DNA of 64,000 bases from an uncultured Bacteroidia bacterium (GTDB taxonomy: Bacteria > Bacteroidota > Bacteroidia > Bacteroidales > UBA932). Location of the stretch: NCBI GenBank assembly GCA_902769525.1, contig CACXPG010000004.1:62001-126000 (forward strand), in the 5' to 3' direction. Both the position numbers and the translations under genes were made by a program. This document shows, one piece after another, positions 8,211 through 25,673 of this stretch (the stretch's first letter is position 1; each line of letters begins with the position of its first letter). The notes below the pieces were generated by a model. It was given only the letters and a program-made list of their open reading frames with translations, searched no databases and was not told where the DNA came from.

Positions 8211-8218
8211 TATATTTG
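8211..8218 (+). promoter_or_regulatory. -7 promoter element of retron 1 ncRNA
   Basis: TATATTTG matches TAnnTTTG and lies 17 bases before the start of the ncRNA a1 arm at 8236. In retron 2 a TAACTTTG box also lies 17 bases before its a1 arm, so the spacing is conserved between the two retrons. Confidence 0.6.
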
Positions 8219-8235
8219 TAATACTTTAGTTCATT

Positions 8236-8441
8236 GACATACCGCAACATTGTTTTGACTTATGTCTGCCATGCTTGGCAGATATCCCAGGCTTTCCAGC
8301 CATCAAAGGGTTAGATGTTGTTTTGTTAGTATTCCCTGTCGGGAAAACAGTGTGACAACACCTCTCATCTGCCTTTCTTTGATAGAAAGGGCCGTACTCT
8401 TTACAAGAGTACGCATACAAAGAAAATAGTTGCGGTATGTC
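8236..8441 (+). ncRNA. Retron 1 msr-msd RNA
   Basis: The element is bounded by a perfect 13-bp inverted repeat: a1 GACATACCGCAAC at 8236-8248 and a2 GTTGCGGTATGTC at 8429-8441. It is followed 19 bases later by the reverse transcriptase start, the standard retron order. Inside are clear hairpins: TCTGCC/GGCAGA (8265-8282), CCTTTCT/AGAAAGG (8372-8390) and GTACTCTT/AGAGTAC (8394-8412). The a1/a2 sequence is nearly the same as that of retron 2. I cannot place the branching G or the exact msr/msd border by eye. The ATG at 8437 lies in a2, so it is not used as the RT start. Confidence 0.82.
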
Positions 8442-8460
8442 TGAACTATCATTAATAGAT

Positions 8461-10475
8461 ATGACAAAAGAAACTATTCTATCTGAAGCGCGAAACATCC
8501 AAACCCTACACGATTTATTAGTACTGCTTAATAAAATAAAACTAGATGAGCTTGGAACTAAAGGGCATCCATTTACAATGCCTCAATTAAACTATTTCAT
8601 AAATCCCAAACGCAACAAGAATAATTACAAAACCTTTACAATTCCAAAAAAATCCGGCGGTATTCGACATATCTATGCTCCAAATCGAATTCTCAAATCT
8701 CTTTTAACTTATACTAATAAATTACTTCAAGCTTTTTATGACGAACCTCCTTTTGTAACAGGCTTTATTCCAGGGAAGTCAATAACAGATAATGCAGAAT
8801 TCACACCAAAAGAAATTATGTCTTTAATATTGACATTAAGGATTTCTTTCCAAGTATATCGCAAGCAAGAATATGGGGATGCTTAAATACAAAACCGTTT
8901 TTGTTTCCTCAAAATATATCTAATGCTATAGCAGGTTTATGTTGCACGGAAGTATTAGAAAATGGTCAAAACAAATATGCCCTACCCCAAGGATCCCCAT
9001 GTTCCCCTATCTTAAGCAATTTTGTTTGCCATAATTTAGACAGAAGGCTTTATAAACTATCGAAACAGCACAATGTTCATTATTCAAGATATGCGGATGA
9101 TTTAACATTTAGCAGCAACTACAATGCCTTTCAAGCTAAAGGAAAGTTCATAGAAATGGTTAAAAAAATAATTTCTCAAGAACATTTCTCAATAAATTCG
9201 GCAAAAACTAGATTGCAAAAAAGAAAGGAAAGACAAGAAGCCACCGGACTTGTTGTCAATGAAAAAGTCAATGTGACTAGAGAATTATTAAAAGATTTAG
9301 ATAATATTCTTTACATATGGGAACGTTACGGAGAAAAACGAGCTTTCATTAACTACCTTAAACATCACAATCTAAAAGCAAATAAAGTTTCAACTATCAT
9401 AAACGTTCCGAAATCCATCGAAGGCAAAATTGCTTTTATAAAAATGGTAAAAGGTGATTGCAAGTTAACACAATCTCTACAAAATCGTTTTAAGCAGATA
9501 TTATCATTCTCAGACAATAATCCTCTCATTTTACCAGTAAAAGAATTCCAATCAATAACAAAATCACAAGTTAAATACCGCCTAGAGAATGGAATAATAA
9601 TACCATATATTCTTTATCCTAACGGGAAGGAAAGCAATGCATTCATAAGCAAGAATCAAGCACGATCTATGTATGGATTATTAAACAAGAATTTATTGAC
9701 AGAAGATTATTTTATAAAACACTCTAGCATACTTATTCCAAAAGACAAACCAGAACATTGCATTTTAGTAAGCAAGTATTTGAACAAACAAACAAGTGAT
9801 GATAATACTGCATTAAAAATTCGGTGGGTCTTTAAAGCATTAAGAAGCTCTATTTCTAGACTTGTTACCAGTTTTAATGATAAGATTTGCCTGTCTTCGA
9901 TTAGATCAATTTATTACCACTTAAATCATTTTAGAACTACCAATATTGTGTCTTATTCGTTTAATGAGAATAAAAATCTTATCAACATAACCTTAAAGAA
10001 CAAAAATACTATTACAAAACTTGGCTCATATTCAAAAAATGATGTTAATCGAGCATTTGTTGATTTTGTTAGTTACTTAAGCAACATCAATGTAGATCTT
10101 AAATATGGTTCTACAAAGAACGAAATAATTGCATTCACAGAAGCACTAATTATAAGCAAAGATATTTATATAGAAATCCTTATATCGTACTATAGATCTC
10201 TCAGAAATGAGCAAAATGAAATAAAACTTAATGATCTTAGACATAGTTTGGAGATAATACCTGTAAATAAACTACTAAAAGTCAAAGAAATAAAGAATTT
10301 CAAGTATGCAAAACATACCGCAAATAGTATAAAGTTATCTCAGTTAACTATGGAAAACGAATCTTTATCCAATAGAATAATTAGTCTTGAATCTGATAAC
10401 AAAAACCTTAAGAATATAATATACAACAAAGATTCTGAAATTAAAAGACTATCAAATAATAAATGGTACCACTAG
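8461..10475 (+). pseudogene. Retron-type reverse transcriptase, frameshifted
   Basis: Two frames (8461-8886 and 8901-10475 in the ORF sense) together encode one RT homologous to the intact one at 23380-24924. Near base 8800, right after DNAE, one T seems missing. Reading on in the other frame restores NYVFNIDIKDFFPSIS, the catalytic-Asp block, and then LPQGSPCSP and YADD (9090-9101). The break falls in the NAxxH motif that marks retron RTs. The C-terminal extension, about 300 residues longer than the RT core, is Lys/Asn-rich and ends in a coiled coil (LESDNKNLKNIIYNKDSEIK). The ATG at 8461 is chosen because MTKE matches the start of the intact RT. It is inactive unless the shift is recoded or a sequencing error. 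Confidence 0.85.
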
Positions 10476-10877
10476 TGTCCGGAGAAATAATCTCCGATAG
10501 GTTTTAATTTATTTAATTTTGATAACTTACAAGGCTCGGAAAATTTTTCGATTAGAACTTCGGTAATTTTGCGGTAGGCATCAAGACGCCATCCGCAAGT
10601 CATGAATAAAGGAAAAACAATCTTCGCACAAATTATGTCTCTCTTCAACGAATATGAGTTCCAGAAGTCTGTCGACCGCTACAAGGGCGACCGTCACGCC
10701 ATCAAGTTCAGTTGCCGTGACCAGTTTATGGTTATGAGCTTTGCTCAGTTTACCGACCGATCTGGTCTGAGAGATATTGAGACTACACTTAACCTCTGTG
10801 GAGACCTCTACAGATCCGGTATCAAGGTGATGCCAAAATCTACGCTTGCCGAGGCCAACGAGAAGAAGGATTGGAGG
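10476..10877 (+). mobile_element. Truncated IS4-family insertion sequence (DUF4372 transposase N-terminus)
   Basis: The frame from 10602 encodes MNKGKTIFAQIMSLFNEYEF, then FSCRDQFMVMSFAQFTDRSGLRDIE and STLAEANEKKDW. This is the N-terminal DUF4372 region of IS4-family transposases common in Bacteroidetes. Homology stops after the DW at about 10875, exactly where the left end of an IS3-family element begins, and the catalytic domain is missing. Its left end abuts the RT stop codon: TGTCCGGAGA with a CGGAGA/TCTCCG hairpin follows at once. That hairpin could be the IS end or an RT terminator. Confidence 0.75.
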
Positions 10878-10935
10878 TATACTACTGCCATAAATTTGAA
10901 CAGGTGCCTAAGTTAAATTTTAATACATTGGCGCT

Positions 10936-11193
10936 ATGAAACGTACAAGACGCACATTCGATTCAAAATTCAAGGCTCAGGTGGCAATTGAGGCAATCAG
11001 GGAACGGGCAACACTCAATGAAATCTCAGCCAAGTATGGTGTATCACCAGTGATGATCAGCCGCTGGAAGAAGGAGTTTCTGGAAAATTCCGCAGCTGCT
11101 TTCGAGACGCCCAAGACTAGTGATTCTGCATTAGAGAAAGATCGGGACAGGTATCTCCGGAAAATCGGTGATTTGGAGCTACAGTTGGATTAA
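10936..11193 (+). CDS. IS3-family transposase OrfA (HTH protein)
   Basis: 85 residues beginning MKRTRRTFDSKFKAQVAIEA, with a helix-turn-helix at about residues 20-45 (TLNEISAKYGVSPVMISRWKKE), the classic IS3/IS150 OrfA DNA-binding region. It binds the terminal repeats in intact elements. It ends at LELQLD, earlier than usual, because the coiled-coil/frameshift region that leads into OrfB seems shortened. Confidence 0.8.
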   Translation: MKRTRRTFDSKFKAQVAIEAIRERATLNEISAKYGVSPVMISRWKKEFLENSAAAFETPKTSDSALEKDRDRYLRKIGDLELQLD

Positions 11194-12013
11194 TCAATCC
11201 CCACAGCAAGATCAGCATCTCGAAGCAATGTCAGATTTTGGGCTTTAGCCGAGGTGTCCGTTATTATGTCACCAAAGGGGAAAGCGCAGAGAATGTGGAA
11301 ATTATGCGTGAGATAGACACTGCCCATCTTGAGTATCCGGCAAAAGGCGTCCTTGGCATGACGGATTATCTTAGGCTTCATAACTACAAGGTCGGAGAAA
11401 GGCGTGTAAGACGTCTGATGAGAAAAATGGGGATAGAGGCTGTCTGCCCAATGAAGACACTCAGCCGTCTTGGAAAGGCAATCTATCTCAAGCCCTATTT
11501 GCTGCGGCATCTGGACATTACACACAGGAATCAAGTATGGTGCATAGACATTACCTATATACCTATGTGAAGAAAGGCTTCCTGTACATGACTGCCATAA
11601 TAGATGTCTTCTCCAGATTCATTGTCGGATGGGAACTGCATAACAGTCTCGACGCCTCCAACTGCATCTCGGTTCTTAGGACGGCCACATCAAAATATGG
11701 TGCTCCTGAGATTATAAATTCGGACCAGGGAGGTCAGTTCACTTGCAAGGACTGGATGGCAGAATGTGCCAAATACCCTGAAATGCAGGCTAGTATGGAC
11801 GGCAGGGGAAGGGCGAAGGACAATATCTGGATTGAAAGATTTTGGAAAACGATAAAATACGAGTATATTTACATAAACCCGGAAGAGAACGGGACTGATT
11901 TATTTAACGGAATAAAAAGATTTATAGAAGATTACAATTATCACAGAACACATCAGGGTATTGAAAGGCAGATTCCAGCAAAGCTGTATTTCAGCCAGAA
12001 GATACCCGCTTAA
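11182..12013 (+). pseudogene. IS3-family transposase OrfB (rve integrase), frameshifted
   Basis: The frame upstream of 11238 reads INPHSKISISKQCQILGFSRG, the usual OrfB beginning, with no ATG. The core then shows VWCIDITYI (first Asp), NSDQGGQFT (second Asp) and NIWIERFWKTIKYEY (Glu), the DDE triad. A frameshift at about 11567-11572, within IPM/KKGFLYMTAIIDV, splits it into two frames (to 11570, and 11537-12013). Autonomous transposition is unlikely. Confidence 0.82.
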
Positions 12014-12122
12014 CTAAAAATTAATGGTAGCCTGTCTAAAAAACGATAGTAGTGTAATACCATTCACATTTAGATAATAATCCATTCTGTTTTCTCTATT
12101 TATCAATTTAAAAAGATATGTC

Positions 12123-12983
12123 ATGAAAAAAGTATTGTACATAATTGGCAATGGCTTTGACCTTGCACATAATATGAAAACTGGTTACGGGGATTTTAAG
12201 TCATTTTGCGAAAAACAGCCCAAACTATATCAAGAACTACAGAGGTTTTATGGTGATATACTTCATAGGGAAGGTATCAAATGGTGGTACCAGTTTGAAA
12301 ACAACCTTGGAAAACTTGATTATGAGTATATAATGAAATCTGATAAGACAATCCTCGCCTCTTCTAACTTGCTGACCTTCTTGACTAACCATATAAGAAT
12401 TCCCTTTGCTGAATGGCTGAAACTTATTACTATCCCAAATGTTCGAAGATTTAACCTAGAAGCTGGGGCATTGTTCTTCACTTTTAATTACACCAGTGTA
12501 TTAGAGGATCTGTATCATGTCCGCCCAGCCGATGTCTTTCATGTGCATGGCCATTTGAAGAACCCGGTTGAAGCAGACAATCTAATTATAGGGCATAACT
12601 TTTCAGAGAGAGAATTGTTTGAGGATTTCATTTCCAGATATCCCAATAGGACTGCACTTAATATGGATATTGTAGAACAATTATATGTTAGTGCTGCGAA
12701 AGGAGGGAAGAATGTAAATGGTATCATCAATCGTAACGAAGAGTATTTCAACAATCTATTAACAATCAATACAATTATCTGCATTGGATTCTCTTTCAAT
12801 GATTTCGACATGCCGTATCTAAAAAGAATCTTTGAGTCAAATGCAGATCAAACGAAATTGCAGTGGCAGGTATACTATTACGATAGGAGTGATGAGATGC
12901 GGTTTCAGAATCAACTGCAGGCCATAGGAGTAGATAAATGCAACATCATAACTCGAGATATTAGAAGCATTTATGCAGAATAG
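12123..12983 (+). CDS. AbiH family abortive-infection protein
   Basis: 286 residues. The start MKKVLYIIGNGFDLAHNMKT matches the glycine-rich N-terminal motif of AbiH. It is followed by ALFFTFNYTSVLEDLY, VFHVHGHL and LIIGHNFSE, the FNYT, HVHG and IGH blocks of the family, and near the C-terminus INTIICIGFSFNDFDMPYLKRI. AbiH gives abortive phage resistance in lactococci; its biochemical action is not settled, though the fold looks SIR2-like. No partner gene is adjacent: IS remnants lie upstream and the convergent retron 2 operon downstream. The 149-base gap to the helicase stop shows no gene. Confidence 0.85.
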   Translation: MKKVLYIIGNGFDLAHNMKTGYGDFKSFCEKQPKLYQELQRFYGDILHREGIKWWYQFENNLGKLDYEYIMKSDKTILASSNLLTFLTNHIRIPFAEWLKLITIPNVRRFNLEAGALFFTFNYTSVLEDLYHVRPADVFHVHGHLKNPVEADNLIIGHNFSERELFEDFISRYPNRTALNMDIVEQLYVSAAKGGKNVNGIINRNEEYFNNLLTINTIICIGFSFNDFDMPYLKRIFESNADQTKLQWQVYYYDRSDEMRFQNQLQAIGVDKCNIITRDIRSIYAE

Positions 12984-13132: not shown

Positions 13133-14929
13133 CTACCCCAATCTCTCACAATTAGTAATATATTGTTTTACTAAACCTTTGAATTTGTAGATTTGAGACA
13201 AATTTGTGTCTGAAATAATCAAGGTTGTACTCCGAGAACGGCTGGTAGCAACATTAAAACGGTGTTCCTCTAATGCAAATGCTGCGTAATAACTCGGTAG
13301 ATACAGAATGCAATAATCTACGGTCATGCCCTGGACTCTGTCCACAGTTTCTATTGTCAAAGAGACTTTTCTATCTGCATTTTGATATCGTCTTTGAATA
13401 GCTTTAACACTATCTTTAAAAGGACAGATGATTGCCAAATCAAAACGCTTTTCTTCGTCTTCCGGGCATGCGTTTTCTAGGTTTTTAATAACATCCCCAA
13501 TCAGCCTAGACGCCGTCTCGGTGAGAATGGGGTTTGAACTGTTATCCGTACAATAGAAGAGAGAGCCTCCTTGTGCAGGGAACAGATTCTCGGGACATCC
13601 AGGAAAAAAAGGGCGCTCAACGGGAACGGACTTGAGTTTAGTATTCCCATAGAAAATACTTGTTAAGGCTGCGCTTCTTTCGGTAAGGCGGAAAGATGTT
13701 GTCACCACAAAACTCTTTGCACCTGCCGCTATAGCAAAGGCTTCAAGGCCACGGCTTTCTCTGACCTGATCTTCCACATACAAAAGCGGATTATTTTGCC
13801 CACTTACGATAGGCGGCATTTGCCGTGGATCGCCAACTATTAGGCAGTGATTCCCGAGACGCCTAAAAGCATTGATGGTCGTATAGAATGTTTGGGACGC
13901 TTCTTCAATTACCAACAGATCGAACATTCCATCTATATCATCGTCATCTCCCTGATACTTGTCAGAGAAAACACCGGACAATAAATAATTTGTCGTACAA
14001 AGAAGGTGTCCTTTGGCCGGACAGATCTTGTTATCAGTAAACTCTACACCAGGTATTTTTTTCTTCTCATCGGCAGTTAATCGGGTCTTGTATACCACCC
14101 CACTCTCTATGCTCTCTTTAAGAGGTTCCTGTGAACATAGCTCAACAAGTCCTTTATTTGTCATTGTAGTACTACAGACCGATTTCCCTTCTTTTAGATA
14201 AGATGCTATAATTTGTGCAATGGTGTAACTCTTCCCGGTTCCGGGAGGCCCTTGAAGGATGCAGCAGTTTTCCTTCTCAAGGGTCGCCATCAAAGTGTCA
14301 GCTATCCCCGTTGGGTTTTCGGGATTGTATTCTAGGGGGACAGGATTCCAATCATCAAGAACAATGGGCTTGTCGTAATTCAACAAAGGGTCGTCTACAT
14401 TCCTCATTATAAACCGAGACATATTGAGGAAGAAATCCTTTGGCGGATAGTTCTCAAAGATGAGCAGCATAGGATGAAGGCCTTTCGCTAGAGCATCTTT
14501 AAGTGACGCGTACATCGCCAAGGAAACAGAACCGCAACAGACATAATCATATCCAGGAGCCTCCCCTCTAGTATATGAGACTGCTTGAATATCAGACGAC
14601 TGAGTGTAATAACGTGAGTCTTTAATAAACTCGTCAAATGTACATTCCCATTTATGCGCATTTGTTCCCAGTTCCTCCCTTGCTGTTTTGCGCACGACGA
14701 CGAAACTCTTCAGGTACCTTAACCTGGGAGCGCCACCTTTATCAAATCTAACGACGACTTGGCCGCGTTGTTCATCAACACGATCCGCATAACCGACATT
14801 TAAGAAGTCATCTTTGAACAGGTCTTTGACCTTACATCTGCGACTCCTCATATGGTCCCGGTCCTGGGCTCTTGCTTGTTCGCGAAAGAACTCTTTTACA
14901 TGTTCTGCTTTACTATTTCTCATTATCAA
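13133..14929 (-). CDS. UPF1/DNA2-like SF1 helicase, last gene of the retron 2 operon
   Basis: 598 residues. Motif I GPPGTGKS is at 227-234, motif II LLVIEEAS at 338-345, motif III GDPRQMPP at 366-373, an SFR segment at 412-414, motif V VDRVQGMT at 529-536 and motif VI RFNVATSRSR at 557-566. This is the AAA_11/AAA_12 (UPF1/DNA2/SMUBP-2) layout. Motif II has EE in place of DE, as in some family members. The N-terminal 200 residues are not recognised and may carry an RNA/DNA-binding domain. The ATG overlaps the TGA of the giant ATPase gene by four bases, so translation is coupled. Expected activity is ATP-driven 5'-3' nucleic-acid unwinding. Confidence 0.87.
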   Translation of the reverse strand: MIMRNSKAEHVKEFFREQARAQDRDHMRSRRCKVKDLFKDDFLNVGYADRVDEQRGQVVVRFDKGGAPRLRYLKSFVVVRKTAREELGTNAHKWECTFDEFIKDSRYYTQSSDIQAVSYTRGEAPGYDYVCCGSVSLAMYASLKDALAKGLHPMLLIFENYPPKDFFLNMSRFIMRNVDDPLLNYDKPIVLDDWNPVPLEYNPENPTGIADTLMATLEKENCCILQGPPGTGKSYTIAQIIASYLKEGKSVCSTTMTNKGLVELCSQEPLKESIESGVVYKTRLTADEKKKIPGVEFTDNKICPAKGHLLCTTNYLLSGVFSDKYQGDDDDIDGMFDLLVIEEASQTFYTTINAFRRLGNHCLIVGDPRQMPPIVSGQNNPLLYVEDQVRESRGLEAFAIAAGAKSFVVTTSFRLTERSAALTSIFYGNTKLKSVPVERPFFPGCPENLFPAQGGSLFYCTDNSSNPILTETASRLIGDVIKNLENACPEDEEKRFDLAIICPFKDSVKAIQRRYQNADRKVSLTIETVDRVQGMTVDYCILYLPSYYAAFALEEHRFNVATSRSRSTTLIISDTNLSQIYKFKGLVKQYITNCERLG

Positions 14930-17900
14930 TCAATTTCTGTCGATGCATTATCCAGATCCGCAGCAGATGTCGTAAAGAAGACATCAGATGCACCTTGAGT
15001 CTTTATTGGAATCATCGCATAGTAATCTCCTGTTCGAGACTCTAACGATCCGGAGTAAAACTTATCCATTATTTCTCCCTTGTTTTGCCCAGTAACTTGA
15101 ATAAAGATTGCAGTATTCTTCACCCAATCTAGAATCTGTTCCTGGGTGTAGAAGTACTTGAATTTACTTGCTCGTTTACCAGCATAAACACAAATAATGC
15201 AACTCCCGTTCTTTACCTTATTCCAAATAGAAGGAGATATGTACAAGATACCCTTAGCTGCACTGCAGCGGTGAATGTATCGTCCATCGTGAAGAGGGAT
15301 ATCACGACTAGCCTTACCATTTTGGCGATAATCGTTTTTTATGAAGTCTATTTCGTCCTGTTCAGTCTCAAATCCTTGAGCCCGTAAACTATCCCAAAAA
15401 CGCTTTCTGGCAAGATAGTTCTGGTCAGCAATCTCCTCTCGGTCAACATTCAAAAGGTCTGCAAGAGTCTCATATTCTGCATCACTAAAATCGGACTGTT
15501 CAAGTTGAATTGGCTTAATGGAAGGCCCTTCTGATACCCAAGCGTTGCCCAATTGATTAGGTCTTCGCCACTGGCTTGTTCCGGCTGCGCTTCCTTTTTC
15601 AGGTCGTTCTTCTCGTTTGGCAGATGTTCCTGTGCTCCTTTCGCCAGAAAATGTCCTTTGTTTTTCCGGTTCTTTGTCTCCCACACCATCTACTTCTCGA
15701 CTTGTATCTGCATTATTCTCTTTAGGTTTATTTGAAGCCTCTTCAATGCTAGTCGTAGAGTCTTCTGTTGCATCTTCTCCGTCAATAAGTTCATCCTCGC
15801 CCAATTCATCATAAAGGCCCGGTTCAGGGTATGCGCTTTCCTCTTCTGCATTAGAAAGGTCCACGGTTGTCACCGCATCATCGGCAGCATTATCCCGAAC
15901 TCCTCCAGTGAGTATTTCTGTTTTACCAGATCCAGCATAATCACGACTTCCAGACGTAGGCGCTTCATTCGTAGATGGTTGCTGTACAGGATGTTCAATC
16001 CTATCATTAGTTCTTTCCGTTGTGGGGTCCATGTCTTCTTCAGGTTCAGACGTACTACCTACTGAAGATGTAGACTCTCTTGTAATATCGCGAGTGTCTG
16101 GCTCTTCTTCATCAATACCGAATGCAACCTTTTCTCTGTACGGAACACTTTCTGTCTTTCTTTCCTTGATAACGTTCCACCCCAACTGTTCCGCAACAGA
16201 CGGATATTCATTATAGAATAGTCTTTGAAAATCAGGATCCTTGCTGTAATAAGCACAGTACTTTTTCACAAAATTTACCAACCTCTTCCCAACCAGGTTT
16301 TCATCAATAATCTTCTTGACTATTTCATAATCGTCATCACAGGGTATCCAAAGAACTTCTTTGTCACACAGTTTTTCTACCAGTCCACCGAAAACGAGTT
16401 TATCTTGCCAGCCATACAAGTAATAGAAAGATGAGGTGTCTTTATCAAAATAACTGGTAAAAACATCACTCTGACAGATGTCGTTATTCAGCGTGCACTT
16501 GATTTCTATACTGTCGCACCGATAAAAGTGCAAAGATTCGATATCTTCGTTATACTTATTATAACTCTCAACCCAAGTCATTTTAAGATCTTGGGCGCCA
16601 TCAATAGCAGTCGCCAGTAATATGCTCTTGCGTTTCAGAACAGAAATAACATTCTCGGTTTCGTCAACATAATGCTCTGGAGTAACTACTTTAAAGTCAT
16701 TTTCATGCAACACTTGAACTCCAAGAACTTCACAGGCCGCTTCATAATCCAAATCAGAGAGCAATTCGTCGTGGATTATATGACTATCTGTTTGAAAATG
16801 CCTACGGTAGTACTTATCTTTATCATCCCTTCCTATGCCATAAAGCCCTTCAATTCTTACCACTTCATTCTCGCCATTTAACCAAAGTGCGTTTTCACGC
16901 CCTCGATATTCACTAATATCTTCCTTAGTTACTGCCTTTTCTTTTTTCAAAGCAATTAACCTTGCAACTGCACTTGTCCGGTACAAGTCATCCGGCTCAG
17001 AATTCAACAACACCTCATAGCAGTGGTTTTTCTCCAAATCACTCTTTAGAGGAAGACTAAAAATCGGATTCTGTTCTTCTTTTCCGTCTTTAAATGAAAT
17101 CCTTTCAGGAATACTCTTATGAACAAACCAATCGTCTGCATCAGAGATAAAACGGTGATATTGTTGAAGGCTCTCACTATAGATACCGCTCGGAAGGTAG
17201 ACTTCATTTTCGCAAGGCACGCAATCAACATCATTTAACACCCCATCTTGCACAAATTTCTTCATGCGTTCAAAGCTATACCTAGTCTTTATGTATTCTG
17301 ACCAAATGTATACCGTGAAACGGTGATTTTCAGACAGAAGTGGAATATCTTCTTCCTGGAACTCTCTATGAACCTTCGCCTGTCTGGAAAGGAAATCTCT
17401 GAGCGTTGTTTTCTTAATCCCTAGACTAAGGTAATGATCTGAAATATAATCCAAAGAAGCGATACCGAATCTCTCAAAATCGCAAATCTCAGCACCATAT
17501 TGAGTCCCTAATGTGAGATCTGAACCATGTTTGAAATGCCCCTCCTTGTTTTTTAGCAAAAGGGATTCATAGGAAACATCTAGATCTAACTGGTTCCTTT
17601 CATCGAGGATAACGACTTCTTTAATAAATTTGTCATGAATGCTTGTTTCCTGGTTACCTAAGTACTGCTTAACTTTTCTTGTTGCCCATTCTATGTTACT
17701 GTTAATCCGGTGCATGGAATTAACGTCCTCAGCTATTCTTCTGAAGAATATACATTGAACAGTACTATATTCGTCCGAAATCTCATCATTTAGTTTGATG
17801 AAAGTCATTGGCTCAGTAAGTCCATCTCCCAGGAAGAGAACATCTGTTACAGGGAGATATTCCCCGGATCTAGTCTTGACATTAAGTTTTGAAAGCGCAG

Positions 17901-20900
17901 AGAGGACTTCTGGTTGCGTGTGGTCAAACAGCTGCTGATTCTCAAAAATAAGCTGTGGCGTAATATCATCTTTACGGCTTTCCAAAGAGGGCAGAATGCT
18001 TCGCAGAATGATATCGTCATTGCTTGACAGGAATCCACTTTTTTCCCACATCTTGAACCAAGCCGCCTTTGTTTCTTGCTCTCCATCTTGCATGTAATCG
18101 GGGCAAATTATCAATGATTCTGGGCTATAGTCCTTTAAGACGTCTTCGATGTGCGTAGCAGAGGCGAAATACTCTTTCGCAATGTAACAAGGAGTATCAG
18201 TTTCGAGTTTCTTAATGACACTCTCATCTTGTCCAGCCTCTCTACATTTAACAGGAATACTTGAAAGGATTGTCTTAATATCAGACTTCCCAAGACTGCT
18301 TCCTAGTCTTTGAACGAGCCTCCATAATTCAACATTTAAAGCCTCATCCGTAAAATCATTCTCGCCAGTAGTCAATAACTCAACTAAACGATCACTATCA
18401 ATCTGCTTGGCGCCTAATCCTTCTACCCAATACGCTTTATTGTCAGCCGCAGTTCCATCCTGGTACTCTAGGCCAATACCACCGTTCTCAAAGTTTACAT
18501 AAAGAGCCGTATTTCCCAAAATGGTTAAAACCGCGTCATTTATTAGTTCCTGACCAGCTGCTGATGGAATAAGAGTTCCATTGCTGTTTATCACAGGAGC
18601 TTTTGAAAGGCCTGCGATGGCGGCCGGTGAGAATAAACTACGGTGATCTTTAAAATACTTATGGAACGACAGATTCTTTTCTTTATCACCCAAAGAGGTC
18701 TTTAGAGAAGATTCTCCCAAGTTTGCAGTGATGACCTTGGTCAGAAAGTCTTCCGGCGAAAACTCAACCAAACCAAGTTTACCTAAAACAGTAAGGCATA
18801 CCGCAGGATTTCCAGCTGGAACATACTCATTAGAGACAACACTTATATAATCGTCAGGCAACCAATCGAGTGACTGAACAGATTCTGCTTCTTTTGAGTA
18901 CAAGTAGAATCTCTTAAAACCGGACGGACCTTCGGTAATGTTCCCTTGACTGTTCACAAACGGATATGATTTCCCTGCAAATGGATTACTGTCGTCTGCG
19001 AAAGCTGAGCTTGCGGTACTGCAAACAAAAGATATAAAATCATAGTTTGCCACCTTCCTTGAATCGCAATCTGCTTCGTTTTCTGGAGCCGAAACTTTTG
19101 ATAAGATATCATCAAGGTGCTTCTTGATTACTCGTTTGAAGAAGGTGCTTGGATTCAGAACCTTGATCCCGAACTTATCTTTCAAAAACGATTTTCTATT
19201 TTCGTCATCAGTGTCATTCTTAAAATATCCCGAGTATAAGGAGTACATCCATCCCGCCTCTGCCCAAGGCTTATTTGCATAGATATCAAAGTCTTTGGAC
19301 GCAAAGAAAACACATTCATCCTCCGGGGAGACGTATGCTATTTTTCCTGTTGAATCTATAGCAGCCAGGTGGAACTGCTTAATTTCCTTATTTTGGAGGT
19401 CTTTCTTATCCCAACGCAGAAATTCAAAGAAATCAAGAGCTATGTCTATTGAAGAAGCAATTGACGTGTTGATTCCTTCAAGATGTGATTCCTGCAAGAT
19501 AATGTCATCATATAAAGAGGTGAACGTACAGTCTTTAACACCATTCTTCTTAAAATAGGCCACCACCTTATCTTTATCAGTAGAGAGGTATTCATCTATG
19601 ACGACATTGAACCAATCCTTCTTTATGAATTGTTTTTTTCTTGCTATTTGAGCAAGATCTCCGTTAAAATACAGAAGACCTTCAGCCTTATCAATACAAC
19701 CTGTATCAACAAATATGGGAAAGGTTGATAATGGCGTATCTATCTCTGCCGTGGCAAGGAAATGGATGAATTTTATAGAGTTTTCCTTGACCTTCAGTTT
19801 TGAAATAGTTTCTTCTTTATTCTCTTCAGATAGAAGAACCGAACTCACAAACTTACTCGGACTGAATGATGCCCATTTGAAGGATGCTTTCAGGTTATCA
19901 GCGTCACCAAAAATACGAGCGTAATCTACCTCCTTTTGATTCAACCTATGTAATTTGTCATGCAAAAAACCAAGGTCATCCTTGTATTTTTCAACGTCCA
20001 AATACAGAGTCTCAGAGGTTTTTAGAGTCTTATCTGCTTCATCGATAAACATCGCACATGTGGCGAAGCTACCTTTTTCGCGGTAATCAAGAATAAAGTG
20101 AAGCCAATTACAGTTGTTATCTTCATCAGTTAACCAAGTCTTAAACGACTCATTATTAAATGCCGCTAAGAGATGTGAAACAGTGAGAGGGTTATCCTTG
20201 AAAAGACTATGGAGCTTTTTGAAAGAATCACATTCACGTAATTCTAAAACAGGGAAATACCTTCCAGTGAAACCGGTGAAACTACACAGTTCAACATCGG
20301 TCATTATTTCCTTTGCGGAAATACCGGTGGCATCATAAACTGCTTCTTTGAGAGTGATATATTCTTTCTGCTCATTCTCCTTAATTACCGGAACGACAGC
20401 TAAACTATTCAGAGCCTCGTGAAAACCATTCTCAAAGGCAGTAATAAACGCCGCATATTTATGACCTCTATTCTGGCGACAATTATCAAAATCCGGAACA
20501 AGATCAAATACCGTGGAAGGCTTATACCCTTCTACAAGCAGATCTTTTAGCCATTCAGCGAACTTAGTTCCTGCAATAGTGGCGAATTTCTCGTTGACCT
20601 TAATGTTTGTTTTGAGCTCACTTCTGTCACCAGAAGGAACCATGTCTGTATTCATCAAAAAAGGGAAGCCGAATTGTGCCTGAGTCGGGAGGTAACAATT
20701 CACAGTAGCATTTCCAACTGGCTTCAAGACCTTTTCTTCTTTCTCGCATGCAAACAGAACTTTGGTATCTTCAAAATCCTCATACTTAGGAGGTATTTCA
20801 TTGGAAGTACTAATCTCCTTATTAATCTCATCCTGCTCTTCCTGAGTAAGAATATACTCATATGGCTCGGAGATAGCCCAGTTATCAGCTTTTTCTTTTG

Positions 20901-21807
20901 TACAGTCAAAAGGGTCTTCACCGGCTATTCTTACTGTAACTGATTGAATATTCGGGATGAAAATAATGTCCCGAATTGTTCTGAAAATACTATGAAGAAG
21001 GGACTGATAATTCTTCCTTACGTCCTGACCGCCTCGCAAGATAGCCTTATCTTTGGGTCTCATCACCGTCTGGACACGGAATCGTTCAGTCCCAGATACA
21101 ACGATATCTCGTATTTCCGGATCAAGTTCATTGTCTTCTGTCCAAATTGGCATTATTTGCCATGGACGTCTACGGGGACGATGGAATGCTTCTTCGAATC
21201 TAAAATGATAATCACCGGTATTGATGTAGACAAAGTCATGGTCTCTGAAGACTGTTTTAAAACCTATGCCCTTATAGCCGATAGCATTCTTTTTTTTGCT
21301 TTTTGAACCGTCGCCAACTTTACAAACGCCAGCAATATCTCGCGCTGTAAAAAACTTGCCATTATGCCGACAAATCAAATAGTTATCAGTTAAGACAAAT
21401 TCAACGTCAACGTTCGTGTATTCGTTTATTGCGATTTCTTCAGGATAATCATTCGCATTCTGAAGAAGTTCATATATGAAAGTACCATCACTGCTTGCCG
21501 TAAGTTCATTGATGATAGTCCTCATCATCGGTGTGAGATCATCCGCATTGTCGGCCTTATCTCTTCTTTTAAAGAACCCTTCGACTTGTTTTTGGGGATT
21601 AATCTTAGTGTAATCGGAATACCTGTCAACAACGACTTTATACTTTCGAGGATTATTGCGATCATATACCAACCTCCACTTAAATTGATAATATGTATTC
21701 AGCGAGAGTCCTTCAATAGGTCCATCAAGAGGTATAATAACCTCACCGGAACCTTCTACATCAGGGTAGGTCAATTCAATAAAGCTTGGTGTCCTGAAAT
21801 CGGACAA
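14926..21807 (-). CDS. Giant sacsin-like GHKL ATPase of the retron 2 operon
   Basis: 2293 residues. The N-terminal region carries a Bergerat-fold ATPase like that of sacsin: FIYELLQNANDY (112-121, N-box), a CRHNGKFF segment (146-153) and AIGYKGIGFKTVF (175-187, G-box loop). About 1,700 residues without recognisable motifs follow, predicted mixed alpha/beta. Then comes an acidic, Ser/Thr/Pro-rich linker (roughly 1880-2085) and a distinct C-terminal domain (about 2100-2290). In related bacterial giants this C-terminal position is occupied by DUF3883 or nuclease-like domains, but I see no clear catalytic residues. It overlaps the 187-aa gene by 37 bases and the helicase gene by 4. Likely an ATP-driven sensor or effector platform, which is inference. 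Confidence 0.82.
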   Translation of the reverse strand: MSDFRTPSFIELTYPDVEGSGEVIIPLDGPIEGLSLNTYYQFKWRLVYDRNNPRKYKVVVDRYSDYTKINPQKQVEGFFKRRDKADNADDLTPMMRTIINELTASSDGTFIYELLQNANDYPEEIAINEYTNVDVEFVLTDNYLICRHNGKFFTARDIAGVCKVGDGSKSKKKNAIGYKGIGFKTVFRDHDFVYINTGDYHFRFEEAFHRPRRRPWQIMPIWTEDNELDPEIRDIVVSGTERFRVQTVMRPKDKAILRGGQDVRKNYQSLLHSIFRTIRDIIFIPNIQSVTVRIAGEDPFDCTKEKADNWAISEPYEYILTQEEQDEINKEISTSNEIPPKYEDFEDTKVLFACEKEEKVLKPVGNATVNCYLPTQAQFGFPFLMNTDMVPSGDRSELKTNIKVNEKFATIAGTKFAEWLKDLLVEGYKPSTVFDLVPDFDNCRQNRGHKYAAFITAFENGFHEALNSLAVVPVIKENEQKEYITLKEAVYDATGISAKEIMTDVELCSFTGFTGRYFPVLELRECDSFKKLHSLFKDNPLTVSHLLAAFNNESFKTWLTDEDNNCNWLHFILDYREKGSFATCAMFIDEADKTLKTSETLYLDVEKYKDDLGFLHDKLHRLNQKEVDYARIFGDADNLKASFKWASFSPSKFVSSVLLSEENKEETISKLKVKENSIKFIHFLATAEIDTPLSTFPIFVDTGCIDKAEGLLYFNGDLAQIARKKQFIKKDWFNVVIDEYLSTDKDKVVAYFKKNGVKDCTFTSLYDDIILQESHLEGINTSIASSIDIALDFFEFLRWDKKDLQNKEIKQFHLAAIDSTGKIAYVSPEDECVFFASKDFDIYANKPWAEAGWMYSLYSGYFKNDTDDENRKSFLKDKFGIKVLNPSTFFKRVIKKHLDDILSKVSAPENEADCDSRKVANYDFISFVCSTASSAFADDSNPFAGKSYPFVNSQGNITEGPSGFKRFYLYSKEAESVQSLDWLPDDYISVVSNEYVPAGNPAVCLTVLGKLGLVEFSPEDFLTKVITANLGESSLKTSLGDKEKNLSFHKYFKDHRSLFSPAAIAGLSKAPVINSNGTLIPSAAGQELINDAVLTILGNTALYVNFENGGIGLEYQDGTAADNKAYWVEGLGAKQIDSDRLVELLTTGENDFTDEALNVELWRLVQRLGSSLGKSDIKTILSSIPVKCREAGQDESVIKKLETDTPCYIAKEYFASATHIEDVLKDYSPESLIICPDYMQDGEQETKAAWFKMWEKSGFLSSNDDIILRSILPSLESRKDDITPQLIFENQQLFDHTQPEVLSALSKLNVKTRSGEYLPVTDVLFLGDGLTEPMTFIKLNDEISDEYSTVQCIFFRRIAEDVNSMHRINSNIEWATRKVKQYLGNQETSIHDKFIKEVVILDERNQLDLDVSYESLLLKNKEGHFKHGSDLTLGTQYGAEICDFERFGIASLDYISDHYLSLGIKKTTLRDFLSRQAKVHREFQEEDIPLLSENHRFTVYIWSEYIKTRYSFERMKKFVQDGVLNDVDCVPCENEVYLPSGIYSESLQQYHRFISDADDWFVHKSIPERISFKDGKEEQNPIFSLPLKSDLEKNHCYEVLLNSEPDDLYRTSAVARLIALKKEKAVTKEDISEYRGRENALWLNGENEVVRIEGLYGIGRDDKDKYYRRHFQTDSHIIHDELLSDLDYEAACEVLGVQVLHENDFKVVTPEHYVDETENVISVLKRKSILLATAIDGAQDLKMTWVESYNKYNEDIESLHFYRCDSIEIKCTLNNDICQSDVFTSYFDKDTSSFYYLYGWQDKLVFGGLVEKLCDKEVLWIPCDDDYEIVKKIIDENLVGKRLVNFVKKYCAYYSKDPDFQRLFYNEYPSVAEQLGWNVIKERKTESVPYREKVAFGIDEEEPDTRDITRESTSSVGSTSEPEEDMDPTTERTNDRIEHPVQQPSTNEAPTSGSRDYAGSGKTEILTGGVRDNAADDAVTTVDLSNAEEESAYPEPGLYDELGEDELIDGEDATEDSTTSIEEASNKPKENNADTSREVDGVGDKEPEKQRTFSGERSTGTSAKREERPEKGSAAGTSQWRRPNQLGNAWVSEGPSIKPIQLEQSDFSDAEYETLADLLNVDREEIADQNYLARKRFWDSLRAQGFETEQDEIDFIKNDYRQNGKASRDIPLHDGRYIHRCSAAKGILYISPSIWNKVKNGSCIICVYAGKRASKFKYFYTQEQILDWVKNTAIFIQVTGQNKGEIMDKFYSGSLESRTGDYYAMIPIKTQGASDVFFTTSAADLDNASTEID

Positions 21808-22334
21808 CTGATAACGTCCAAGATTATTCTTTTCATAGATGGCAATGCATTTTTGTCTTTTGGCCAGTCGGCATCAAACACCAAGTCATAGAATTTCCCA
21901 ATATCAATTCGTTCCTGGTTCTCCGTAGAAGGCGAATAATACTGCCCATACTGTTGAGCCGTTAAGAAATCCGTGCTGATATTTGAAATGGAACGTGGAA
22001 CCACATAGAAATTGAAGGGATTGTCTATACAATATCTTGCTGAATTCAATTTAATCTTGAAGCAGACCGGGCCAGGCGCAAGGTTAAGATTCCATGTACG
22101 CTTCACTCTAAAACGTTTGGGAGATGGAAAACCGAGAGGTATAGTTAGGGGCCCTCCGTCAGGAGTAGAAATATCTTTTATTTCACCACAACATTCATCG
22201 TATAAGTAATAGCTGGGAGGATATGTAGTAAATACTCCCAAGCAGGGTACTTCGGTTCCAAACCAATTATCTCGAAGATAATTCTCAACGTCCTTTCTGC
22301 TTGCTTGCAGTGCAGATGCCTGGTCGGTTATCAT
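21771..22334 (-). CDS. Hypothetical 187-aa protein of the retron 2 operon
   Basis: No family recognised. It is strand-rich with many aromatic and Pro residues (YPPSYYLYDECCG, PLTIPLGFPSP, NPFNFYVVPRS) and has no signal peptide or membrane helix. It begins 44 bases after the 341-aa gene stop and runs 37 bases into the giant ATPase gene in another frame, so its expression is tied to the operon. It may be an adaptor between the RT complex and the ATPase; nothing in the sequence proves this. Confidence 0.7.
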   Translation of the reverse strand: MITDQASALQASRKDVENYLRDNWFGTEVPCLGVFTTYPPSYYLYDECCGEIKDISTPDGGPLTIPLGFPSPKRFRVKRTWNLNLAPGPVCFKIKLNSARYCIDNPFNFYVVPRSISNISTDFLTAQQYGQYYSPSTENQERIDIGKFYDLVFDADWPKDKNALPSMKRIILDVISCPISGHQALLN

Positions 22335-22378
22335 TATGATACTGAAGTTATTATGTTATTAATGAAAGGAAAATGAGA

Positions 22379-23404
22379 TCAAACTTCTATTCTCTCAACC
22401 TTCCCTTGTTTATTAAAGAATACCTTGATAGTTTGGCCTGTGTTAATCGTCCCGGCTTTCTTGAAGATGAAGCTGGGGATTTCATATACCTCGCCATCAC
22501 CATTTTTAACGAACATTGAACTTGCCAATACGCTTGTCACCGCACATTCCTCTGCTCGTTCTCTGAAACGACTCGCGTACTTAACAAGTTCCCCTTTAGA
22601 TACACTTCCTTCTATGATCTTGTTAACGAAATAAATTAGCTCGGAAAAGAATAATGCGTAATACCTATTTTTCTGAGGAAGGATGGTGGCCAACCTTTTC
22701 TCCTGCCCCTCAGTCAATTCACCACCTCTGTGATCAGCCTGACATCTTATCACGTATATGTCATATATAAGGCTGGTATTGTATATCCATTCTCCGTAGC
22801 CCGAATACCTCAACTTTGAACCAAAGCCGGCAAAATACAGAGAGCATTTGACCTTATCGTACATCCCTAATTTGGACGGTGGCAAATCTTTTTTCTCGAC
22901 TTTATCGATTTTGTCATAATCACCGAAGATCAATCTGTTGACAGTCGTGTTCTTAGGGTCGGAGTAGCGATTCGCAATATCTCCATTATTGGCAACATAT
23001 GCAGATAGACTGGCGTGTAGAATGCGGGTATAGATCTCTTTATATTGCTCGTCAGCACATATCACATTGCAAATATTCTCAATCTGTAAGAAGAGGTGTG
23101 CGCCAAAATTATAGAAATCTCCTTTTCTTCTGAATCTTTCCATAATTACATAATCCTCTACAAGGACGTCAATAATGTTAGGGCAAGGGAAACCTTCATA
23201 TAGACCAATTGCCTGCTCCTTTGCATTTTTTTCGAGGCAGAGTTCATAAATCTCCTCGATTTTGTCCTTGTCATACGGTGCCGCATTTGAGGCGTCCTCT
23301 ATTAAACTCTGAATCCCGGCAGCAAATTCTTTGTTGTCGGGATCGTCATATAACTCTTTAACGAACTTTAGCAGCTTAGTCAGCTGCTTTTTATCTTGTC
23401 CCAT
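22379..23404 (-). CDS. Hypothetical 341-aa protein directly after the retron 2 RT
   Basis: The ATG lies inside the RT gene; the two overlap by 25 bases in different frames. The first 290 residues look all-helical and charged (LLKFVKELYDDPDNKEF, IFLQIENICNV-type segments, ALFFSELIYFVNKIIEG). The last 45 residues switch to short strands (GEVYEIPSFIFKKAGTINTG, then QTIKVFFNKQGKVERIEV), which may be a small beta-barrel. The position matches that of effector or accessory genes in other retrons, but I recognise no known retron effector in it. Confidence 0.75.
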   Translation of the reverse strand: MGQDKKQLTKLLKFVKELYDDPDNKEFAAGIQSLIEDASNAAPYDKDKIEEIYELCLEKNAKEQAIGLYEGFPCPNIIDVLVEDYVIMERFRRKGDFYNFGAHLFLQIENICNVICADEQYKEIYTRILHASLSAYVANNGDIANRYSDPKNTTVNRLIFGDYDKIDKVEKKDLPPSKLGMYDKVKCSLYFAGFGSKLRYSGYGEWIYNTSLIYDIYVIRCQADHRGGELTEGQEKRLATILPQKNRYYALFFSELIYFVNKIIEGSVSKGELVKYASRFRERAEECAVTSVLASSMFVKNGDGEVYEIPSFIFKKAGTINTGQTIKVFFNKQGKVERIEV

Positions 23405-24924
23405 TCATCAAGTGTTTTTAAATCAAAATCAGAATCTATGAGGGTGGTCAGCATCTCATCAGTTGACTTCCCAAGCGTACTGCTCGGCTCATTTAGTGCC
23501 TCAGGAATTACGGAAGAAGATAATACTACGGCTTGTGAGATTGTGTCAATCAGGTCAGAAAGGTCGGTCTTTACCCAGGTTCTCTTTCGTTCAATTCTCC
23601 AGAAGCAGGAATTATCCTGCTCATAGAAAACGAGCATGTAGGAGGTTTTGAACTTCTCGAGTACAGCAGCATTGTTCTTAGCCAGGATGTTTGATATTCT
23701 GGTCCGGACATAATGGCTGAGTGTTACAGATGTCTTCTTGCCGTTAAGGTTAAAGGAACAGAAAATGACGCCATCTTTGTTGGGCTCGAAGGCAAGGACC
23801 TGACCGATCTTCTTTTCAAAGTCAGCGATGGTATACTTGTATTTGAGTGTGGCTTCTACAGTGGATGGTTTCGCTCCGGAAAGCTTGTTAAACCGTCGTT
23901 GAAGTCGTCTCCACACCTCATTATCAGCTCCTTTGACCATCTTCATATAAAGGAGCTTCCCCTGAATCACTGCCTGCATATTTGGCTTGTTAGAGTGGAG
24001 ATTCTGCTTAGGTGTATAGTGTGTCAAGAACTTAGCATAGGCATCGGCTTCGCCATGCTTTTCCCAGATATATAGAAGGTTATCAAGTCCGCGAACATAT
24101 TCACGAGTCACGTTAACGCGGTCGCTCACAACAAGCCCGGTCACTTCCTGGCGCTGGTTCTTATTCTGAACGCGCGTTTTCTTCTCGTTGATGGAAAAGT
24201 TCTGGCCGGTGATGATCTCTACCAGTTCCTTTTGGAAATCCCCATCTTTATGGAAAACATTGCGGTTGCTGCTGAATGTAATGTCATCAGCATACCTAGA
24301 GTAACGCAGGTTGTATTTCTTGGCCAGTTTGTACAGCCTGCGATCAAGATTCCGGCACACGATGTTTGTCAGGATAGGAGATGCCGGAGAGCCCTGTGGC
24401 AACACCCAGCGCGTTTCGCCATCGATAACCATTTCCGTGCAGCATATACCAGCAATGGCATCAGCGACTGTGTCATTGAAGTTGAAAGGAGGACGCTTCA
24501 AGGTGGCCCAAACCCTCGACTTAGTAATACTGGGGAAGAAATCTTTCAGGTCAGTGTTGAACACATAGTTCATCCCAACATGACGCTCGGCGTTGTCAAC
24601 CACCGATTTCTCCGGGACGAATCCGGTCACATACTCGGGACCTTCATAGAAGGCCTGAAGAAGCTTATTAGTATAAGTAAGGAATGACTTCAGCATATTC
24701 TTAGGCGCTGAAATCATCCGGAATCCGCCGGATTTCTTGGGGATGCGGAACTCCTTGTAACTCTTCTTATTACGCGCAGGATGGATGAAGTAATTGAGAT
24801 GGGGCATAATGAAAGGATGACCCTTGCCACCTAGATCGTCCATCTTGATTTTATTCAAGATGGTCAGAAGGTCATGGGTACTCTTTACCTTGGCTGCAGC
24901 TGCTACAATTGCTTCTTTGGTCAT
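23380..24924 (-). CDS. Retron reverse transcriptase (retron 2, intact)
   Basis: 514 residues. Key blocks: IPKKSGGFR (61-69), NAERH (111-115, the retron NAxxH motif), DLKDFF (125-130, first catalytic Asp), LPQGSPASP (175-183), YADD (211-214, catalytic) and VTG (261-263, the retron motif that recognises the msr). All are intact. About 170 residues after the RT core form a C-terminal extension that I do not recognise. It makes msDNA from the RNA encoded just upstream (24951-25164); the ATG at 24924 is 26 bases after the a2 arm. It heads a five-gene operon. The frameshifted RT at 8461-10475 is a close relative. Confidence 0.93.
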   Translation of the reverse strand: MTKEAIVAAAAKVKSTHDLLTILNKIKMDDLGGKGHPFIMPHLNYFIHPARNKKSYKEFRIPKKSGGFRMISAPKNMLKSFLTYTNKLLQAFYEGPEYVTGFVPEKSVVDNAERHVGMNYVFNTDLKDFFPSITKSRVWATLKRPPFNFNDTVADAIAGICCTEMVIDGETRWVLPQGSPASPILTNIVCRNLDRRLYKLAKKYNLRYSRYADDITFSSNRNVFHKDGDFQKELVEIITGQNFSINEKKTRVQNKNQRQEVTGLVVSDRVNVTREYVRGLDNLLYIWEKHGEADAYAKFLTHYTPKQNLHSNKPNMQAVIQGKLLYMKMVKGADNEVWRRLQRRFNKLSGAKPSTVEATLKYKYTIADFEKKIGQVLAFEPNKDGVIFCSFNLNGKKTSVTLSHYVRTRISNILAKNNAAVLEKFKTSYMLVFYEQDNSCFWRIERKRTWVKTDLSDLIDTISQAVVLSSSVIPEALNEPSSTLGKSTDEMLTTLIDSDFDLKTLDEWDKIKSS

Positions 24925-24950
24925 TGGATTCTGCTCGCATAAAAGGTCGC

Positions 24951-25164
24951 GACATACCGGAGCATATTTTCTTTGTCTACGGACTCGTCAGAGATCCGGA
25001 ATATAGAATCTTCTATATTCTCTATATCTCATCACTCATATGTGCTTGCACATCTGTGGAGAAGTGTAACTTCTCGAGTAACGAGTAAACCTTTGGAAGT
25101 ATCCGATTTTACGGACATCTGTCAAACGTGACAGACGAAAGTCAAAAGTCCGCTCCGATATGTC
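24951..25164 (-). ncRNA. Retron 2 msr-msd RNA
   Basis: On the minus strand, a1 (25164-25152) reads GACATATCGGAGC and a2 (24963-24951) reads GCTCCGGTATGTC, a 13-bp stem with one G-U pair. Inside are strong hairpins: CTGTCA/TGACAG, GAGAAGT/ACTTCTC, ATGTGC/GCACAT and a 10-bp stem GAATATAGAA/TTCTATATTC (24999-25020). The last is adjacent to the a2 side, where the msd stem should lie. Order and spacing to the RT match retron 1. Exact msd ends and the branching G need experiment. Confidence 0.82.
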
Positions 25165-25181
25165 AAGAACCTAATGTTCTA

Positions 25182-25189
25182 CAAAGTTA
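25182..25189 (-). promoter_or_regulatory. -7 promoter element of retron 2 ncRNA
   Basis: TAACTTTG on the minus strand matches TAnnTTTG and sits 17 bases upstream of a1, the same spacing as TATATTTG in retron 1. No good TTTG is seen at the usual -33 distance. Confidence 0.55.
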
Positions 25190-25229
25190 ATTATTTTTGT
25201 GAGAGTTGACTTCTTTATCTGCACCTTTA

Positions 25230-25264
25230 CAAAGATATAATCTCTATGCGAAATCATTTTTCGC
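25230..25264 (-). promoter_or_regulatory. GCGAA-N7-TTCGC operator and -7 box upstream of retron 2
   Basis: On the minus strand GCGAA-AAATGAT-TTCGC (25264-25248) is followed after 10 bases by TATCTTTG (25237-25230), a good TAnnTTTG. Transcription from here would start about 60 bases before the ncRNA a1 arm. It is the same composite site as at the WYL gene and seven other promoters. Between this site and the truncated gene ending at 25407 I see only an AACACT/AGTGTT hairpin. Confidence 0.65.
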
Positions 25265-25406: not shown

Positions 25407-25673
25407 CTACATTATTATTTTCGCTTTAGTAGTGGCCTCTCTGTCAGTCTTCACTCTAAGGACTCTGGCGGCTCTGCCGGTTGGAGCCATCAACTGAGGA
25501 TGCAATTCCATTTTGTCCACCATTTCCAGTATAGGTGACACAAGAGTAGTCTTACCGGTACCGGCATAGCCGCGAAGGATGAAGACACGATTATCGGACT
25601 TCAGAAAAGCGCCAATCTTGTCCAGAGCCTCCTGCTGCTGGGGCGTATATGTTATTGCATTATTCTCACTCAT
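25407..25673 (-). pseudogene. 5' fragment of a RecD2-like (AAA_30) helicase gene
   Basis: 88 residues: YTPQQQEALDKIGAFLKSD, then FILRGYAGTGKTTL (Walker A) and APTGRAARVLRVKTDREATT. This is the N-terminus of a RecD/TraA-like ATP-dependent helicase, which is normally several hundred residues long. Homology ends after REATT at about 25430, and a short run-out (KAKIIM) leads to a stop. The rest of the gene is absent from the window. It lies 6 bases after the 25680-26435 gene and would share its promoter. The break marks the border where the retron 2 DNA joins the older chromosome. Confidence 0.8.

Follow-up and report, generated by a model that had tools for sequence, protein, structure and literature searches.

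A Bacteroidales retron with a conserved partner protein and a probable cassette slot holding a sacsin-like ATPase and an SF1 helicase

Retrons are bacterial systems that use a reverse transcriptase to raise an alarm against viruses. A retron noncoding RNA (ncRNA) and a reverse transcriptase (RT) head a run of five genes on the reverse strand of a 64,000-nucleotide stretch, hereafter the window, from an uncultured Bacteroidales bacterium (contig CACXPG010000004.1, positions 62,001 to 126,000; assembly GCA_902769525.1). The RT is followed by a partner gene, g2, a small gene, g3, a giant sacsin-like ATPase, and a superfamily 1 (SF1) helicase (Table 1). Two modules probably share this operon: a retron with a new partner protein, and a cassette slot behind it that has twice captured an ATPase-helicase module. 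Module 1 would comprise the ncRNA, the RT, and g2. Module 2, a sacsin-like ATPase and an SF1 helicase that in some cases carries a fused PIN domain, occurs free of retrons in other genomes, would be self-sufficient, and would have been captured here into the variable slot behind g2.

The initial annotation of this DNA, made from the letters alone, had proposed a new retron type in which multicopy single-stranded DNA (msDNA) gates the ATPase and the helicase. Its account of the layout was accurate, because the list of open reading frames (ORFs) reproduces exactly the three overlaps (25, 37, and 4 bases) and the 44-base gap. A structured fold and the motifs NAERH, YADD, and VTG bear out a retron ncRNA and an intact RT at the head of the operon, and domain matches agree with a 2293-residue ATPase and a 598-residue SF1 helicase at its end. 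The set may also be new: "retron" and "sacsin" occur together in no paper of the searched literature, which lacks most subscription papers, and no title or abstract start listed for related terms contained this gene set.

Table 1. Features of the retron operon, with coordinates counted from the first letter of the window
Feature	Coordinates	Strand	Description
Possible transcript start	25182-25189	-	TAACTTTG, fits TAnnTTTG; 17 nt before the ncRNA
Retron ncRNA (msr-msd)	25164-24951 (a1 25164-25152; a2 24963-24951)	-	Identified by fold z-score, arms, and conservation
RT	24924-23380	-	514 residues, intact; RVT_1 and PADLOC retron RT models
g2	23404-22379	-	341 residues; helical body and C-terminal OB-like barrel in the predicted model; partner of the RT
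g2 constant N-terminal segment (first 32 codons)	23309-23404	-	Body behind it exchanged among close relatives
g3	22334-21771	-	187 residues; perhaps a split-off N-terminal domain of the ATPase (weak)
Giant ATPase	21807-14926	-	2293 residues, TTG start; sacsin-like (Bergerat) ATPase near the N-terminus
SF1 (UPF1/IGHMBP2-like) helicase	14929-13133	-	598 residues; lacks a C-terminal PIN domain that its nearest relatives have

The retron RT and its ncRNA

The RT matches RVT_1 in Pfam (2.3e-23), and its best PADLOC models are retron RTs (6.4e-107). The closest relative found is the RT of locus L064, with 90% identity. Upstream, the stretch 25170-24946 has a folding energy of -86.4 kcal/mol (z -7.2 against 200 shuffles), and the end arms a1 and a2 of the ncRNA pair over 13 bp with one G-U. 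Among five relatives (the window retron, termed retron 1, a second retron of the window, the two retrons of L062, and that of L064), four pairs of the arms have changed on both sides, while the mean column identity of the ncRNA is 70%. The ncRNA had no match in Rfam. Judged by RT family, the NAxxH and VTG motifs, a structured ncRNA immediately upstream with paired a1/a2 arms, and a conserved partner protein, the element is a retron.

The -7 element of Bacteroidota promoters is TAnnTTTG. Similar motifs were seen in the sequences before the ncRNAs of retron 2, L062, L062b, and L064. The window contains 57 TAnnTTTG motifs against 48 expected, a count not above chance, and before the ncRNA of retron 1 the complete -33/-7 pattern is missing.

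A conserved partner of the RT

A search of 393 genomes of the window's order for g2 returned two other matches, both directly behind an RT; neither the ATPase nor the helicase was found within 16-19 kb of them. A scan of species genomes with an alignment of three g2 sequences gave 27 loci, two of which (L084 and L088) are, judged by length and content, those same two contigs. An RT of the same clade lies directly before g2 in 26 of them, counting L063 and L077, in which it is cut by the contig end; the contig of the 27th, L076, begins 144 bases before g2. Adding the window, L143 and L149 from an RT search of the order, L089 and L090 from a phylum search with the g2 alignment, and L156 on a viral contig, where the RT is split in two frames, makes 33 loci. 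The RT directly precedes g2 in 32 of these, and the 33rd is L076, cut off by its contig end. A further candidate, L044, which matched g2 at 7e-4 in a frame interrupted by six stops, was dropped before this count.

The converse fails: g2 stands beside the RT in five of the 17 order genomes with an RT match at E <= 1e-40 (the window's own, G111, G349, G021, and G156). In several of the remaining genomes the RT is longer and possibly fused, or has different partner genes; some of the fetched flanks are short. Plasmid searches with the operon DNA, g2, and g3 gave no match, and the viral-contig search gave one g2 locus and no g3 match. On this conserved gene order, g2 is the constant partner of this RT.

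The partner also lacks a name among the PADLOC, Pfam, and NCBIfam models. No convincing family was found in Pfam or PADLOC for 28 members or in NCBIfam for the window protein; the weak scores among the 28 were CPG4 in five (best 0.0089), DUF4840 in one (0.0027), and the PADLOC Cas13a model in one (0.016). A g2 profile had no match among solved structures. Twenty-two residues are invariant in the 28 members, including R220 and H225, which the predicted models place at a helix end. Two AlphaFold models (pLDDT, the predicted local distance difference test, 87 and 88) have a helical body, to which the window protein would add a C-terminal barrel. Foldseek matched the full model best to OB folds (E 0.009 and above); the body alone had no significant fold match, with Csm6 listed at E 2.2.

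Exchange behind a constant N-terminus

The window and L064 share 89% DNA identity over 25191-23310, which covers the ncRNA, the RT, and 32 codons of g2. Beyond 23310, identity in 75-column steps falls to 31-55%, with one step at 73%. Residues 1-32 of g2 are 88-100% identical among the window, L062, L063, and L064, whereas the bodies are 32-74% identical. Informative sites supporting window+L062, window+L063, and window+L064 number 57:2:1 in the g2 body, where the window pairs with L062 and L063 with L064; in the RT they number 0:2:6, placing the window with L064 on a small number of sites. As read from these alignments, the g2 body has been exchanged behind a constant 32-residue N-terminus.

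A second pair of loci, L074 and L082, has RTs that are 96% identical over at most their first 420 residues and g2 bodies that are 36% identical. Their DNA is 88% identical to about codon 83 of g2, differs for about 4.05 and 4.26 kb across the g2 body and the third gene, and is then 85-89% identical again. The third gene encodes an ATPase with a weak NO VEIN match at its C-terminus in L074 and a WD40-like propeller in L082. Between the two loci the N-terminal 32 columns of g2 are only 67% identical, a less clear pattern than that of the window and its relatives. Two further pairs keep g2 and differ in their downstream genes: L080/L083, where homology ends near the g2 stop, and L084/L079, where it ends at that stop. 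One joint exchange of g2 body and third gene thus stands beside two breaks at or near the g2 stop, too few to test joint exchange.

The ATPase-helicase module without a retron

The ATPase matches SACS (1.9e-9), the NCBIfam sacsin-like domain (1.7e-18), and PADLOC TmtA (3.4e-82, residues 74-790). The helicase matches AAA_11 and AAA_12, and the IGHMBP2 family at 1.5e-17, under the cut-off of that model. ATPase searches covered 393 genomes of the order (22 with a match) and 395 of the phylum (17 with a match), the window's own genome included in both. Thirty-nine loci covering the other matched genomes were fetched, and many of the matches comprise only the N-terminal ATPase part. A helicase of this kind adjoins the ATPase in ten loci, and the window RT and g2 had no match at E <= 1e-5 in any of the 39. 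No RT was present in the fetched DNA of these ten pairs. One genome supplied both L033 and L097, and the L033 contig, 7.3 kb long with an incomplete ATPase, covers the upstream side poorly. A plasmid search with the ATPase gave only 12 partial matches. In L040 and L095 the pair lies inside a longer gene run, the large neighbours of which look alike by eye.

The ATPase and the helicase had been put forward as the retron's defining partners. Of the eleven pairs in the ATPase searches, the only one with an RT in the fetched DNA is that of the window, and among the 33 RT-g2 loci the pair is present in the window and L081 only. RT-g2 loci without the pair and pairs without an RT rule out g3, the ATPase, and the helicase as core retron genes. 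Gating of the ATPase and the helicase by msDNA is conceivable though doubtful, and it fails as a defining association. Because the pair is found elsewhere without retrons, the sequences suggest that the genes downstream of this retron are swapped like cassettes.

Could the missing parts of module 2 mean that the operon is decaying? Such decay, compatible with the other readings, would have made module 2 inert through a frame change between g3 and the ATPase and the loss of the PIN domain. By eye, the ATPase frame lacks an ATG until about residue 94, and g3 fits the place of the ATPase N-terminal domain. Single-sequence scores between g3 and the ATPase N-terminus are near chance, and 32 of 2000 shuffles score higher than g3 against the N-terminal profile. 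We retain as likely, because of its place and weak similarity, that g3 is perhaps the ATPase N-terminal domain split off by a frame change and not a separate gene. Helicases of 742-784 residues occur in L032, L033, L092, L097, and L081, and all three that were run through Pfam (L032, L033, L081) contain PIN_4; the window helicase lacks this part of its closest kin, L032 and L033. The RT of the second retron is likewise in two frames. Against decay, both long frames of the window are open, five other pairs also have short helicases of 589-643 residues (that of L094 has 703), and the frame changes could be assembly errors. On balance, we regard decay as very improbable.

Two captures behind g2

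In L064, the closest retron to that of the window, the ATPase-helicase pair is absent. Among the 27 g2 loci, tblastn found the pair in L081 only, directly behind g2; L062, L067, L068, and L087 offer just 0.6-1.1 kb of sequence behind g2. L074 has a different sacsin-like ATPase directly behind g2, in two ORFs. The ATPase and helicase profiles were built here with L081 among their rows. The ATPase profile matched only the L081 and L074 ORFs among 452 ORFs of the 27 loci and had no match in the other five g2 loci (L143, L149, L089, L090, and L156); the helicase profile was strong in L081 and weak in three other ORFs (3e-7 to 2e-6). In the helicase tree, the window groups with L032/L033 (100/99) and L081 with L094 (100/100), and these tree neighbours have no RT in the DNA fetched. 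This separate placement requires two independent arrivals of module 2; the window and L081 are also apart in the RT tree.

The initial annotation would have called the linkage accidental if the pair occurred mostly without an RT. The pair does so, and yet its independent recurrence in L081, together with the other sacsin-like ATPase in L074, argues for more than accident. The same recurrence bears on the possibility that these genes are plain neighbours in a defence island, their common strand and short distances being coincidental, without shared regulation or function. The second retron, an AbiH gene, and IS3-like transposase ORFs (the last by eye) in the region fit an island, as do RT-free copies of module 2 and the wide variety of genes behind g2. 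We nevertheless hold an island to be improbable, since the ATPase profile finds no further match in the sequence flanking the 27 loci, and the 37- and 4-base overlaps and the 44-base gap look operonic.

Alternatively, the gene behind g2 could be a real, exchangeable effector, and g2 an adaptor, the N-terminus of which binds RT-msDNA and the body of which holds the effector. The ATPase-helicase pair, a PLD nuclease, a beta-propeller, an AlbA protein, and so on would then be effectors, and msDNA would gate the giant ATPase. The joint block in L074/L082 favours an adaptor, as do the 44-base gap in the window and the presence of a sacsin-like ATPase in this position in three loci whose RTs lie on separate branches. 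PLD-like proteins behind g2 in five loci, 56-72% identical to each other and labelled by a Pfam score for two of the five, point the same way, and their five RTs form one clade. In 16 of the 27 loci the g2 stop is followed within 120 nt by the start of a codirectional ORF, which alone is no striking excess among mechanically called ORFs. An adaptor is at odds with the ten RT-free pairs and with several RT-g2 loci that have nothing codirectional close behind; in L063, L064, L077, and L086 the next ORF is on the opposite strand. Bodies and third genes also look unmatched, since by eye L081-like bodies precede an ATPase in L081 and a propeller in L082, and L080/L083 and L084/L079 keep g2 despite different downstream genes. 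We therefore consider the adaptor unlikely. We are similarly doubtful of a modular retron in which the ncRNA, the RT, and the g2 N-terminal tag would be a fixed sensor, and the g2 body and the following genes exchangeable cassettes giving many outputs. Its cassettes would include the sacsin-like ATPase with the SF1 helicase, a PLD nuclease, a beta-propeller, and others, the giant chaperone-like ATPase being otherwise free-standing.

A two-module model and the evidence against it

In the two-module operon that we favour, the RT would copy part of the ncRNA into msDNA, and the RT-msDNA complex would hold g2 via the constant 32-residue N-terminus, keeping the helical body inactive. A phage product disturbing the msDNA or the RT would free the body and growth would stop, perhaps through an HEPN-like RNase activity. 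Module 2 would probably be read from the retron's promoter and act as a second line of defence rather than as an msDNA-gated effector. The HEPN-like assignment of g2 is tentative; it draws on two analogies, the type IX retron and AbiA, an RT that carries an HEPN tail (PMC3710099).

Several observations weigh against parts of this model. The R220-H225 motif is R-x3-H in 24 of the 28 g2 members and R-x4-H in four, against the canonical R-x4-6-H of HEPN proteins, and three Foldseek searches of the two AlphaFold models gave no match at E <= 0.001. Twenty-nine of the 39 ATPase-matched loci show no such helicase, and module 2 is not universal even for its own ATPase. Both sacsin-like ATPases of the 27 loci lie directly behind g2, which looks unlike a random island, although the profile includes L081. 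In L074/L082 the g2 body and the third gene differ as one block, as if moved together. The 44-base gap before g3 contains no TAnnTTTG motif, and for this reason module 2 may depend on the retron's transcript; such a motif does lie inside g2, at 23104-23111.

Comparison with known systems

Over the RT part of the window protein, the PADLOC models of types XI (RT-protease), XII (RT-TIR), and I-C (RT-Toprim) score 6e-107, 2e-100, and 1e-92, and the ncRNA with a1/a2 arms is a further likeness. These types have fused effectors, whereas Pfam shows only RVT_1 in the window RT, with no protease, TIR, or Toprim behind it, and the window has g2 as a separate partner. Type XI was rejected, as there is no protease and the match extends only to position 380 of the 506 in the model, which corresponds to residue 420 of the 514 in the protein.

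Tiamat is a single-gene system. The window ATPase resembles its TmtA over the region given above only, is longer (2293 residues against 1302 model positions), and is adjoined by a helicase gene, as are the ATPases of L081 and ten other loci. Mokosh is defined by MkoA/MkoB or by MkoC. The window helicase, likewise of SF1, matches PADLOC MkoA at 1.9e-21, but the five genes give only short partial MkoA and MkoC matches, and this helicase adjoins a sacsin-like ATPase.

As described in the available part of its report, the type IX retron (retron-Kva2, PMC13405049) has separate partner proteins beside the RT, as does the window, namely an HEPN protein and a winged-helix protein. By the analogy that we propose, g2 might be a helical RNase held by RT-msDNA. 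The window type instead has one protein of about 270-340 residues, to which an OB-like barrel belongs in the window, and no ORF for a winged-helix protein lies between the ncRNA and g2. Type IX was rejected on the RT_IX score (4.5e-52, far weaker than type XI), the absence of a convincing Pfam family for g2, and the winged-helix gene not seen. Retron-Sda1, in the part of its description at hand, is a precedent for a retron beside a predicted functional system (HipA-DUF3037); there the system replaces the usual effector, whereas the window keeps g2 and adds a module behind it (PMC12548924).

Second retron and neighbourhood

A second retron, absent from the initial annotation, lies at about 8211-10475 on the forward strand, with a promoter-like TATATTTG ahead of its ncRNA. 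Its ncRNA (8236-8441, z -7.7) has perfect 13-bp a1/a2 arms, and its RT has a long C-terminal extension and a frame break near 8797. It is without g2, the window's genome holding a single g2 match. Tandem retron RTs, each with its own ncRNA, also occur at L062:6222-11032, where g2 directly follows the second only.

Just before retron 2, 5403-8063 (+) encodes an 886-residue WD40-like propeller protein. It is related to the third genes that follow g2 in L078 and L082, with 24-34% identity over separate pieces; such proteins are recurrent retron neighbours on either side. Relatives of a WYL-domain regulator (3761-4978, +) precede the RT in 21 of the 27 g2 loci, usually in the same orientation. For the remaining six (L063, L070, L076, L077, L080, L088), the DNA fetched extends less than 2 kb before the RT or does not include its start, and none of the 27 with room upstream lacks the regulator. 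That of the window precedes retron 2, not retron 1, and by eye similar ORFs lie near many other RTs of the clade.

Between the two retrons, 10602-12983 (+) holds the IS3-like transposase ORFs (by eye) and the AbiH gene. On the reverse strand, an 88-residue ORF at 25407-25673 resembles the start of a RecD-like helicase and ends adjacent to the retron; by eye, longer ORFs that begin in much the same way stand beside RTs in L090, L146, and L150. Related RTs in L142, L145, L148, L150, L151, and L153 are followed by a small receiver-like ORF and an ORF of 531-681 residues, by eye another operon type.

Conclusions

Retron types have so far been sorted by effector function and operon structure. Closely related RT-ncRNA units, in the window and L064 and in L074 and L082, combine a common partner N-terminus with partner bodies that differ widely. 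They offer a testable case of how a retron may hold its partner, via an N-terminal tag, and of how new retron types may arise, through exchanges within the g2 gene or at its stop codon. The ATPase-helicase module is thereby set apart as a candidate defence system of its own.

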